From Paenibacillus sp. FSL R7-0204 (GTDB lineage: Bacteria; Bacillota; Bacilli; Paenibacillales; Paenibacillaceae), in contig NZ_JBBOCA010000001.1 in assembly GCF_038002225.1 (NCBI RefSeq), forward strand, positions 5,084,001-5,148,000: 64,000 nt of DNA. Direction: 5' to 3'. Positions 22,457 through 28,160 of the stretch are shown here, in pieces (the first letter of the stretch is position 1; each line of letters begins with the position of its first letter). The notes below the pieces were generated by a model. It saw only the letters and a list, made by a program, of their open reading frames with translations. It made no database searches and was not told where the DNA came from. The translations under genes and the position numbers were made by a program.

Positions 22457-23686
22457 ATGAATATCACCTGGGCTTTACTGATGATGGCACTGGGAGGCGT
22501 GGGTGTCCCGAATCAAGGACATGAAGCCGATGTGGCAGCAGTACTGCAGAGCGCCATGAATCCCCCCATCGTCTCAGAACACACAACGAATCCGGACGCA
22601 GCAGCATCACCGAACGGCGGCGGCACTGCCTCTCCTGCACCTTCACCAAGCGCATCGCCGGAGACAGCACGTATTGCCGATCCGCAGCCGGATGCTCCCA
22701 AGGTTAAAGGGATATACGTGACTGCCTACAGCGCCGGGGGCGCACGGATGGAGACACTGCTTGCCCTGCTGGACAAAACTGAGCTCAACTCCATGGTCAT
22801 CGATATTAAGGATGATGCCGGATATATCACCTACAAGACGGACAATGCTGAGCTTCAGCAAATGGGACATCCCCAGCCGTTCATAGGGGATATCAACAAG
22901 CTGATGACCCGCCTGAAGGAGCATGATGTATACCCGATTGCGCGGATCGTAGTATTCAAGGATTCAGTACTCGCCAAGAAGAACAAGGAATTATCCTTCG
23001 TCAACAAAGACGGCTCTGTCTGGGCCAACAAGGGCGGAGACAGCTTCGTCAATCCTTATAATGAAAATGTGTGGAAGTATAACGTAGACATTGCCAAGGA
23101 GGCCGTTAAGCTTGGGTTCAAGGAAATCCAGTTTGACTATGTACGCTTCCCTGAAGGCTTCGAGAAGCGTGCGGACACTCTGAAATACACCAAGAGCGAC
23201 AGACCGCGCGTGGAAATCATCGCCGACTTTGTCAAGTATGCCAAAGCTGAGCTGGCCCCGCTGGGAGTTCGGATCTCTGTGGATATCTTCGGCTATGCCG
23301 CCTCGGTACCTGCTGCAGAAGGCATCGGCCAGGATTTCGTGAAGATCTCCAAGAATGTTGATGTCATCAGCCCGATGGTCTATCCGAGCCATTATTCCAC
23401 CGGCTGGTTCGATGTGAAGGATCCGGACAAAGACCCTTATGCTACAATTAAGGGCTCAATGGTCGATACACACAAGAAGTTGAATCCGCTAGGCAGCTTC
23501 AAACCGGTGATCCGCCCATGGATTCAGGATTTCACCGCCAGCTGGCTGGGCAGCGGGCATTATGTCAAATACGGCAAGAAGCAGGTTGAAGATCAGATCC
23601 GTGCCTTGAAGGATCAGAATATCGACGAATTCCTGCTTTGGAATGCCAATAACCGCTATACCGCCGATGTGAAATACGACCAATAA
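22457..23686 (+). CDS. Putative glycoside hydrolase (DUF4015), exported
   Basis: A 409-aa protein. Residues 1-25 are hydrophobic but lack the usual basic start, so export is likely but not certain; a Ser/Pro/Ala linker follows (about 45-75). The catalytic-like TIM barrel of DUF4015 spans about 80-400: GIYVTAYSAGG, the acidic strand VIDIKDDAGYI, IQFDYVRFPEG with a candidate catalytic Asp, and VDIFGYAAS, VISPMVYPSHY. The substrate of this family is not established; polysaccharide of the cell wall or exopolysaccharide is plausible. It has its own terminator. Confidence 0.85.
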   Translation: MNITWALLMMALGGVGVPNQGHEADVAAVLQSAMNPPIVSEHTTNPDAAASPNGGGTASPAPSPSASPETARIADPQPDAPKVKGIYVTAYSAGGARMETLLALLDKTELNSMVIDIKDDAGYITYKTDNAELQQMGHPQPFIGDINKLMTRLKEHDVYPIARIVVFKDSVLAKKNKELSFVNKDGSVWANKGGDSFVNPYNENVWKYNVDIAKEAVKLGFKEIQFDYVRFPEGFEKRADTLKYTKSDRPRVEIIADFVKYAKAELAPLGVRISVDIFGYAASVPAAEGIGQDFVKISKNVDVISPMVYPSHYSTGWFDVKDPDKDPYATIKGSMVDTHKKLNPLGSFKPVIRPWIQDFTASWLGSGHYVKYGKKQVEDQIRALKDQNIDEFLLWNANNRYTADVKYDQ

Positions 23687-25285: not shown

Positions 25286-25546
25286 TCACCGGCTTTTTAC
25301 AAGCAGATCCACCGCTTCCTTAATCACTTGCTCAGGGGAATTCCCCTTCGCCAGCTCTTCCTGGATACAGTGCTCCAGATTGTCTCCGATCACTGCACCA
25401 ATAGAACGGTCTACAGCTGTCCGGATCGCTGTCAACTGAGTCACAATCTCACGGCAATCCTTGCCTTCCTCCAGCATCCCCAGCACTCCCCTTACCTGAC
25501 CTTCAATACGTTTCAAGCGGTTGGTAATGGCTTTATCATATTCCAC
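25286..25546 (-). CDS. cstR: CsoR/FrmR-family repressor, CstR type (persulfide sensor)
   Basis: An 86-aa all-helical DNA-binding repressor. Cys31 (GKDCREIV) and Cys60 (NLEHCIQEE) lie at the same positions as the two sensing cysteines of Staphylococcus aureus CstR. The copper-ligand His that CsoR has four residues before the second Cys is Asn56 here, which argues against copper sensing and for cross-linking by persulfides. The start is GTG at 25546 with GGGAG upstream. It lies 16 bases after the sulfur-handling fusion gene, and CsoR-type operators stand in front of that gene, so it is probably autoregulated in one operon. Confidence 0.88.
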   Translation of the reverse strand: MEYDKAITNRLKRIEGQVRGVLGMLEEGKDCREIVTQLTAIRTAVDRSIGAVIGDNLEHCIQEELAKGNSPEQVIKEAVDLLVKSR

Positions 25547-25562
25547 TGTCGATCAGCTCCCT

Positions 25563-28049
25563 CTAGATAAATAAGTTCACGCCGGAGTCCTCGGCAGCTC
25601 CAAGATAGCTGGCAACACCGCCGAAATCCACACCTTCAATCAATTCCTCCTGCTTGATGCCCATGATATCCATACTCATTGTGCAGGCCATCAGCTTAAC
25701 CCCCGCATGCAGTGCGCCCTGCATCAGATTCTCCAGGGACTCCACATTCTTGCGGCCCATCGTATAACGGATCATTTTGGCGCCAAGCCCGCCCATATTC
25801 ATTCTGGATAAAGGAAGCTTCCGCGTTCCCTTCGGCATCATCAGGCCAAACATCCGGTCGAGAGCATTCTTCTTCACCTGCGGAGACTGCCCCCGGCGCA
25901 GAACATTAAGCCCCCAGAAGGTAAAGAACATGGTTACCTGCTTGCCCATCGCTGCAGCGCCTGTTGCAATAATGAAGGAAGCAATGGTTTTGTCCAGATC
26001 ACCGCTGAATACAATCATCGTGGTTCCTTCGGAGACTTCTGCCTGTCCCGCCGGTACTGCGGCTCTGTCTGCCGGGTCTTGTCCCTTGCGCACCATTGCC
26101 TGAACCTTGCCTCCGGATACATCCACAGCTTCCAGCGTATTCCCCGTCTTACTGCACCACTGCCTGATATCAGCGGCAAAGCCGAAATCCGTTGCAGTGA
26201 TCTCTACCCGCTGGCCTTCCTCCATAGAACGGATAGTCTCATATACTTTGAGTATAGGGCCAGGGCACTGTAATCCGCAAGCATCCAGCAAGAGCGGCGC
26301 CTTACTGCTAAGCTGTTCCTGGATATGGACTATACTGGCGGGAGACGAGTCCTCTTTTTTCAAAACCGGTGCTTCTGTCTTCCCGGAATCTCCAGTGTTA
26401 TTCCTTCTTGCCATTGCTGCGTATGTTTTGTAGCCTCCGTCAACGTTTCGTACTGCATATCCATATTGAATTAACATCCGGGCAGCAATGTAGCCGCGTA
26501 GCCCTACCTGACAGGATACGGCGATCTCCTGATCCCGCGGAATCTCTGCAAGCCGGTCTCTCAGCTCAGCCAGAGGAATATTGATAGAACCGGGTACATA
26601 ACCGGCTAACCGCTCTACTTCGTCTCTGACATCAATGATAAGACCGCCACTGCGGGCGAATTCGTCCACTTCATGCCATTGCAGATTGCGGACGAGTCCT
26701 TCTATCAGATTGGAGGCAACATAACCCGCCATATTGACCGGATCTTTGGCCGAGGAATACGGCGGCGCATATGCCAGCTCCAGATCCGCCAGCTCATCAG
26801 CCTTAAGCTTGCTGCGGATAGCGGTGGCAATGACATCGATTCTTTTGTCGACACCGGCACTTCCGACCGCTTGCGCTCCATAGATCTCTCCGGTCTGCGG
26901 GTTGAACAGCAGCTTGAGCGCTATCGGTGCAGCACCGGGGTAGTAACCGGCGTGGGAATTCGGATGGATATGCACAGCTTCAAAGGGAACGCCCAATGAA
27001 CTAAGCGTCTTCTCATTATTTCCGGTCAGCGCAGCCGTCATATCGAAGAGCTTGATAATCGCAGTACCTAATGCTCCCGTATACGAGGCTTGCCGGCCAT
27101 TGATATGATCAGCGGCCAGACGCCCCTGACGGTTGGCACCCCAGGCAAGGGACACCATGGTATCGAACCCCTGAACACGGTCCTTCACTTCAATGACATC
27201 TCCAACAGCATAGATAGCCGGATCACTCGTCTGCAGTGAAGCATTCACCTTAACAGCCCCCCGGATGCCCAGCTCAAGTCCGCAGCTTCGTGCCAGGTCA
27301 TTCTCAGGACTGACCCCGATCGCCAGAATAACCATATCCGTGCTAAGCTCCCCGCCGGAGGAGAGGCGAACCAGACGGCCTTGTTGTTCAAAAGCCTCTA
27401 CGCCCTCATTCAGCCGCAGCTCGACCCCATGCAGACGCATATGCTCCTCCAGCGGACGAACCATCTCCAGGTCAAGCGGGTTCAGAATCTGCTCCCCCCG
27501 GTCAATTACTGTTACGGCAAGCCCCCGTTCCCGGAGATTCTCAGCCATTTCAAGGCCGATAAAACCTGCTCCAATTACAGTGGCATGCCGGGGCTGACGG
27601 CTGTCCACATATGCCTTGATACGGTCTGTATCCGGAATATTCCTTAAGGTAAACAGGTTATCAGCCTCGTTAATACCCGGAAAAGGAGGAACAATCGGCT
27701 TAGCCCCGGGAGAAAGTACAACAATATCGTATGGAATCTGCTGTGTCTCTCCTGTCGTTACATTGCGGCAGTACACCTGCTTGCGTTCGCGGTCAATCTG
27801 TGTCGCCTCAGTAAAGACTTTCACATCGATATTGAAACGCGCCTGTATACCAGCTGGTGTCTGCAGGAACAGTTTATCTCTTGAATCAATAGTCTCGCCT
27901 ATATAATAAGGCAAGCCGCAATTGGCAAAGGAAACATGCTCTCCCCGTTCCAAAATAATAATCCGGTCTTCTTCATTTAATCTTCTTAAGCGTGCAGCCG
28001 CCGACGCCCCTCCGGCAACTCCGCCAATAATGACTATCGTTCTACTCAT
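25563..28049 (-). CDS. CoA-disulfide reductase / rhodanese / TusA / DsrE fusion protein
   Basis: An 828-aa multidomain enzyme for reactive sulfur. Residues 1-445: FAD/NAD(P)-dependent CoA-disulfide or CoA-persulfide reductase with GGVAGGASAAARLRR, the redox Cys44 in SFANCGLPYYIG, and YAVGDVIEV. About 455-545: rhodanese domain, active-site Cys513 in VSCQVGLRGY. About 585-655: TusA domain with Cys591 and Cys595 in CGLQCPGPILK. About 676-828: DsrE2-like domain with Cys789 in KLMACTMSMDIMG. Reductase-rhodanese pairs are known; adding TusA and DsrE on one chain lets sulfur pass between four active cysteines. It heads the operon ending with cstR and is likely induced by sulfide or persulfide. Confidence 0.92.
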   Translation of the reverse strand: MSRTIVIIGGVAGGASAAARLRRLNEEDRIIILERGEHVSFANCGLPYYIGETIDSRDKLFLQTPAGIQARFNIDVKVFTEATQIDRERKQVYCRNVTTGETQQIPYDIVVLSPGAKPIVPPFPGINEADNLFTLRNIPDTDRIKAYVDSRQPRHATVIGAGFIGLEMAENLRERGLAVTVIDRGEQILNPLDLEMVRPLEEHMRLHGVELRLNEGVEAFEQQGRLVRLSSGGELSTDMVILAIGVSPENDLARSCGLELGIRGAVKVNASLQTSDPAIYAVGDVIEVKDRVQGFDTMVSLAWGANRQGRLAADHINGRQASYTGALGTAIIKLFDMTAALTGNNEKTLSSLGVPFEAVHIHPNSHAGYYPGAAPIALKLLFNPQTGEIYGAQAVGSAGVDKRIDVIATAIRSKLKADELADLELAYAPPYSSAKDPVNMAGYVASNLIEGLVRNLQWHEVDEFARSGGLIIDVRDEVERLAGYVPGSINIPLAELRDRLAEIPRDQEIAVSCQVGLRGYIAARMLIQYGYAVRNVDGGYKTYAAMARRNNTGDSGKTEAPVLKKEDSSPASIVHIQEQLSSKAPLLLDACGLQCPGPILKVYETIRSMEEGQRVEITATDFGFAADIRQWCSKTGNTLEAVDVSGGKVQAMVRKGQDPADRAAVPAGQAEVSEGTTMIVFSGDLDKTIASFIIATGAAAMGKQVTMFFTFWGLNVLRRGQSPQVKKNALDRMFGLMMPKGTRKLPLSRMNMGGLGAKMIRYTMGRKNVESLENLMQGALHAGVKLMACTMSMDIMGIKQEELIEGVDFGGVASYLGAAEDSGVNLFI

Positions 28050-28069
28050 TCTAATTCCCTCCTATTTGC

Positions 28070-28085
28070 ATACCCCTATGGGTAT
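28070..28085 (-). promoter_or_regulatory. CsoR/CstR-type operator 1
   Basis: ATACCCCTATGGGTAT, a perfect inverted repeat of ATACCC around CTAT, 20 bases before the start of the fusion gene. The G-tract half sites are typical of CsoR-family operators. Confidence 0.7.
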
Positions 28086-28091
28086 CATAAT

Positions 28092-28107
28092 ATACGGGTG
28101 GGGGTAT
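28092..28107 (-). promoter_or_regulatory. CsoR/CstR-type operator 2
   Basis: ATACGGGTGGGGGTAT on the plus strand is a second G-tract site (minus strand ATACCCCCACCCGTAT). Its centre is 22 bp from operator 1, two helical turns, so two tetramers could bind the same face. Confidence 0.6.
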
Positions 28108-28118
28108 ACTGTCAAGTC

Positions 28119-28160
28119 AAAAAAGAGCAGCCCCTTCCGGTGATGGAAGGATTGCTGCTC
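28119..28160 (-). terminator. Terminator of pfkA
   Basis: GAGCAGC pairs with GCTGCTC around CCTTCC/GGAAGG; read on the minus strand it runs into TTTTTTGAC. Confidence 0.85.

Follow-up and report, generated by a model that had tools for sequence, protein, structure and literature searches.

The stretch of Paenibacillus sp. FSL R7-0204 DNA analyzed here (the window; 64,000 nucleotides) encodes a two-gene unit, in which a four-domain fusion of a CoA-disulfide/persulfide reductase, a rhodanese, TusA, and a DsrE-like domain is followed by a CstR-type repressor. The fusion is probably (with a probability of about 0.75) a CstR-repressed CoA-persulfide/polysulfide reductase whose on-board carriers feed the reductase. 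It is a well-formed but ordinary example of an already described enzyme type, and the two-gene unit does not amount to a novel type of system; what is new here is the operator-like footprint upstream of it and a survey of its spread.

The fusion is encoded on the reverse strand (25563..28049) by an open reading frame of 828 amino acids with an ATG start and no internal stops; an earlier end coordinate of 28110 includes the promoter/operator region beyond this frame. The domains, each above its curated Pfam cut-off, are Pyr_redox_2 (residues 4-292), Pyr_redox_dim (332-434), Rhodanese (465-544), TusA (588-655), and DrsE_2 (PF13686; 676-827, E 1.3e-60, score 204.3 against a cut-off of 25), and the assignment is accompanied by matches in NCBIfam and the PDB. 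A first-pass annotation, made from the sequence alone, had described a CoA-disulfide reductase, a rhodanese, TusA, and a DsrE-like domain joined in 828 residues, and the Pfam order bears this out, with both TusA and the DsrE-like domain found at the C-terminal end. Because the DsrE2 equivalog model NF047629 (NCBIfam) scores below its cut-off (87.6 against 210) and the PF13686 cut-off is exceeded, the last domain is termed DsrE-like rather than DsrE2. The FAD/NAD(P)H disulfide reductase domain carries the active-site Cys44 within the sequence SFANC, which we take to be the active-site cysteine motif of these enzymes, and the rhodanese that lies C-terminal to it carries the catalytic Cys513.

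Conservation was examined in 80 related loci, the best 80 of 181 confirmed. The chain is a single open frame of 815-907 residues in all 80, a count that is biased toward full-length relatives by the use of the fusion as query; like every count over these loci, it is drawn from related, and hence non-independent, sequences. Cys44, Cys513, Cys595, and Cys789 are cysteine in 80/80 loci, and Cys591 in 72/80, so Cys595 is more likely than Cys591 to be the carrier cysteine of TusA. These five positions had been read correctly from the translated frame in the first-pass annotation. The three further cysteines of the fusion are retained less often (Cys632 in 44/80 loci, Cys256 in 10/80, and Cys94 in 3/80). 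The linkers at residues 547-585 and 658-674 have mean majority fractions of 0.32 and 0.30 over the 80 loci, compared with 0.62-0.75 within the domains. In an AlphaFold2 model of the fusion (39 sequences; mean pLDDT 84.9, pTM 0.66), pLDDT falls below 50 in residues 553-582 and 665-671 only, between confidently predicted domains. The poor conservation and low pLDDT of both inter-domain linkers fit flexible tethers, and with a pTM of 0.66 the model leaves the arrangement of the domains unsettled.

The closest proteins of solved structure match the N-terminal two-thirds of the chain. In a PDB search, CoADR-RHD (3icr), presumably the Bacillus anthracis enzyme, aligns over fusion residues 2-546 (750 bits), and the coenzyme A persulfide reductase (CoAPR) of Enterococcus faecalis (8a56) over residues 5-545; the former is a 588-residue chain of reductase and rhodanese only, and the latter a 571-residue PDB chain, likewise without the TusA and DsrE-like domains present here. 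The E. faecalis enzyme, named by a variant of "coenzyme A persulfide reductase" in its description, reduces CoASSH, is regulated by CstR, and is persulfidated at the rhodanese Cys508 (PMC9405070, 2022; this and the other papers cited by PMC number are drawn on in excerpt). By analogy, the reductase and rhodanese of the fusion would act like CoADR-RHD or CoA-persulfide reductase: Cys513 would handle the sulfur of CoA persulfide or polysulfide, and Cys44 would form a mixed disulfide that is reduced via FAD, yielding CoA and H2S. Less credible is that the fusion is mostly a thiol-redox enzyme, a CoA disulfide or general disulfide reductase in which the sulfur-carrier domains are secondary. The NF010037 CoA-disulfide reductase cut-off is indeed narrowly exceeded (399 against 394; NCBIfam), and a B. 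fragilis double mutant lacking bmoR and the related gene 0572 is diamide-sensitive, with no persulfide sensitivity mentioned in the excerpts (PMC6158253), but scores for TIGR03385 (525.1 against 578.8) and NF007123 (382 against 458) fall below their NCBIfam cut-offs, Cys513, Cys595, and Cys789 are as invariant as the reductase cysteine, and the adjoining regulator is CstR-type. We therefore regard such a role as quite unlikely.

The complete four-domain architecture also has precedents. The first-pass annotation was sound in its observations and in its interpretation of the domain order, the cysteines, and the CstR-type repressor, but its claim to novelty, that in known systems these carriers are separate proteins or parts of shorter fusions, is contradicted by Pcar_0429 (2012), by BF638R_0572 (2018), and by chains that are common in Bacilli. 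Pcar_0429 of Pelobacter carbinolicus has the same four domain types as the fusion, and its gene is named as one of those most strongly upregulated during sulfur reduction (PMC3543383). Its numbering places it beside Pcar_0426-0428 (two periplasmic thioredoxins and one outer membrane protein), and CstR is not mentioned in the excerpts (PMC3543383). BF638R_0572 of Bacteroides fragilis has the identical domain order in one chain, with near-identical residue ranges, and likewise lies in an operon with its own repressor; that repressor, however, is the MarR-type BmoR rather than a CstR-type protein, and it bound at the BF638R_0572 promoter, at an inverted repeat with TTTCC (PMC6158253). A four-domain chain with CstR is absent from the excerpts of PMC6158253, PMC3543383, PMC9918477, and PMC9774590. 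Literature searches returned no paper joining CstR with "CoA-disulfide reductase" (a search whose reach is limited by enzyme-name variants and subscription papers) and none linking CstR, Paenibacillus, and persulfide (limited by wording and, again, subscription papers).

The 2012 description of Pcar_0429 already put forward an intramolecular persulfide relay, coupled to NADH/FAD reduction, with sulfur passing from the rhodanese to the TusA-like and DsrE-like domains, where disulfide formation releases sulfide (PMC3543383); for the Paenibacillus fusion the relay is a proposal too. Here, TusA (through Cys595) and the DsrE-like domain (through Cys789) would serve as tethered persulfide carriers, which most likely gather sulfane sulfur from other donors and deliver it to the rhodanese and reductase. 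This direction of feeding is one of two, since the Pcar_0429 proposal runs the opposite way. The on-board reductase is favored as the end point, although this is unproven, because the only TusA found in a search of the genome is that of the fusion and a search for a DsrC/TusE-type acceptor, with E. coli as the positive control, found none. It is improbable that the fusion acts instead mainly as a sulfur-distribution hub, in which sulfur accepted by the rhodanese from CoA persulfide or thiosulfate would travel outward through TusA and DsrE into biosynthesis, as it does along the separate Rhd-TusA-DsrE proteins of sulfur oxidizers. The sole TusA found would suit such a role, as would the direction from rhodanese to TusA to DsrE that is summarized for Allochromatium (PMC9918477) and proposed for Pcar_0429; the failure to find an acceptor, the fused flavin reductase, and the adjoining CstR-type repressor all speak against it. 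The fusion could also be pictured as the cell's single sulfane-sulfur junction, in which floppy linkers hold the sole TusA, together with a DsrE-like carrier, to the reductase and let one enzyme choose between H2S release and biosynthetic hand-over while CstR sets the enzyme's amount, although we consider this rather unlikely. Rhodanese domains occur in three frames of the genome: a 320-residue two-domain protein, a 127-residue protein, and the fusion itself.

The regulator supports the reading of the fusion as a persulfide reductase. Its gene (25286..25546, reverse strand; 86 amino acids, GTG start) begins 16 nt past the end of the fusion on the same strand, and its product belongs to PF02583 (88.5 bits against a cut-off of 22.8; Pfam). 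The best PDB matches are 7mq1 and 7mq2, the latter labeled CstR in a figure legend (PMC9774590). It has the residue pattern of CstR, with Cys31, Cys60, and a non-His residue, Asn56, at the copper-ligand position, the same pattern that had been described initially. In the PDB alignment, 7mq1 also has Asn at this position and 7mq3 shows Ala. The C31/C60 dithiol is shared with the CstR/YrkD sulfane-sulfur sensors (7mq1/7mq2; PMC9918477, PMC5480029, PMC9774590), although in Staphylococcus aureus and Bacillus licheniformis these sensors control cst/yrk clusters in which the carriers are separate or differently fused and which also include sqr and pdo. Membership in the CsoR family is all that speaks for a copper sensor and a copper-induced operon. 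We reject this reading, which is very improbable, on the Asn56 pattern: the His ligand is replaced by Asn here and in 40/40 neighboring homologs, and the one other CsoR-family protein found in the genome retains a Cys-His-Cys pattern. Of four ORFs tested around that second protein, two matched Pfam, one as an MFS transporter and the other as a PadR regulator, and with such neighbors a copper role for it is unproven.

For comparison across loci, the 80 were grouped by hand into 28 Paenibacillaceae (L006-L033, of which L015, titled Bacillus sp., was included by 69% identity), 34 other Bacilli, and 18 Clostridia and others. A CsoR-family gene lies within the fetched stretch (up to 3 kb on each side of the fusion, shorter at contig ends) in 40/80 loci, and all 40 of its products have the C31/N56/C60 pattern. 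Such a gene accompanies 25/28 Paenibacillaceae fusions, just downstream, as well as 14/34 in other Bacilli and 1/18 in the remaining group; the fusion is not always accompanied by a nearby cstR, since the fetched stretch of 40/80 loci has none. In six genomes without a local gene, a scan gave 20 CsoR-family matches, 12 of which were inspected as loci. Among these 12, a C/N/C protein is encoded elsewhere in the genomes of L009 (L106), L034 (L101), L045 (L105), and L050 (L104), and none was seen among the inspected matches from the genomes of L010 and L011. Three Paenibacillus loci (L009, L010, and L011) keep tandem one-mismatch sites at -55/-34 without an adjacent cstR.

Upstream of the fusion, two tandem operator-like inverted repeats, 22 bp apart, overlap a predicted promoter (TTGACA - 17 nt - TATTAT; 28087..28115, reverse strand; 11/12 matches). 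The promoter match is not significant by itself, since the scan found 2 sites where 3.2 were expected. The upstream site, ATACCCCCACCCGTAT (28092..28107, reverse strand), has two mismatches to ATACCC-N4-GGGTAT, lies in the promoter spacer, and abuts the -10 element, and the downstream site, ATACCCATAGGGGTAT (28070..28085, reverse strand), is a perfect match immediately past the -10. A weakly supported terminator-like hairpin (28132..28151, reverse strand; 5 found against 2.6 expected) separates the phosphofructokinase gene from the operon. No other perfect match exists in the 7,710,461-base genome, and the reversed control gives none. Two other places in the window match with two mismatches, and the upstream site alone is within chance. 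With three mismatches allowed, 24 matches lie in the window where 18.9 would be expected, and 14/100 shuffles reach 24, so the pattern is informative only when near-perfect and through its conservation. One-mismatch sites elsewhere give no sign of a wider regulon, as at this setting palindromic places number 18 in the whole genome and 9 in the reversed control.

Conservation of the sites is pronounced. Within 400 nt 5' of the fusion, 56/80 loci carry a site with no more than one mismatch, and 25/80 a perfect one; shuffled upstream regions, with base counts preserved, gave a mean of 0.02 of 80 loci and a maximum of 1 (50 shuffles). Together with the genome count, these shuffles exclude a chance origin of the perfect site. 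The remaining 619,175 bases of the loci contain three such sites, all of them in the three Lactococcus loci (L059, L061, and L062) and ∼2.3 kb 5' of the fusion. These are perfect matches, with none at the fusion itself and cstR ∼0.2 kb downstream, and perhaps mark the head of a longer operon. By group, sites with at most one mismatch are present in 27/28 Paenibacillaceae, 28/34 other Bacilli, and 1/18 others. In 23/28 Paenibacillaceae loci, two sites (up to two mismatches each) are spaced 21-22 bp apart, about two helical turns, which lends support to the upstream two-mismatch site; the other five have spacings of 19 bp (two loci) or 54 bp (one), a single site (one), or none (one). Operators of CstR are pseudo-palindromic, with a G/C tract. 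From the conservation pattern we regard the sites as candidate CstR-type operators to which CstR would bind, a label based on this conservation rather than on published CstR operator letters. Among the 18 non-Bacilli loci (L057, L063, L064, L066, L067, L070, L072-L079, L081, and L083-L085), both a CsoR-family neighbor and a site occur only in L057. The rarity of sites outside Bacilli indicates that CstR control is not bound to the fusion as such.

In the proposed model, which borrows the dithiol switch from published CstR relatives, CstR made from its own operon would occupy the two tandem operators over the promoter until persulfide or polysulfide joins C31 and C60' in a cross-link, which would release the repressor. 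The enzyme would thus be made when reactive sulfur rises, and the two-gene operon would clear sulfane sulfur.

Four-domain chains are common in Bacilli, and further members occur in Clostridia. Counted by the presence of DrsE_2 in a frame of 815-910 residues, a criterion that covers one of the four domains and the chain length, and with the window's own genome included, probable chains of this kind are found in at least 61/100 genomes of the genus and at least 25/111 of the class. Among the best 120 of 7962 homologs, most are named "CoA-disulfide reductase" and some "FAD-dependent oxidoreductase" or "DsrE/DsrF/DrsH-like family protein". The genome also encodes a second, stand-alone DrsE_2 protein of 158 residues beside a class-V aminotransferase (L108, 2427-2903, reverse strand), and stand-alone DrsE_2 frames of similar size occur in many genomes of the genus among the matches listed. 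Elsewhere in the window are a DUF2600 protein (PF10776; 29234-30331, reverse strand), two genes upstream and with no evident sulfur link, and a putative glycosyl hydrolase domain, DUF4015 (PF13200; residues 85-401 of 409), encoded at 22457-23686 on the forward strand.

A fusion known from few papers is therefore common in Paenibacillus and present in many other Bacilli, where it usually lies behind conserved CstR-type operator-like sites. With a single chain, regulator, and promoter, and with its TusA the only one that the genome search found, the Paenibacillus unit offers a simple two-gene system for the relay proposal.
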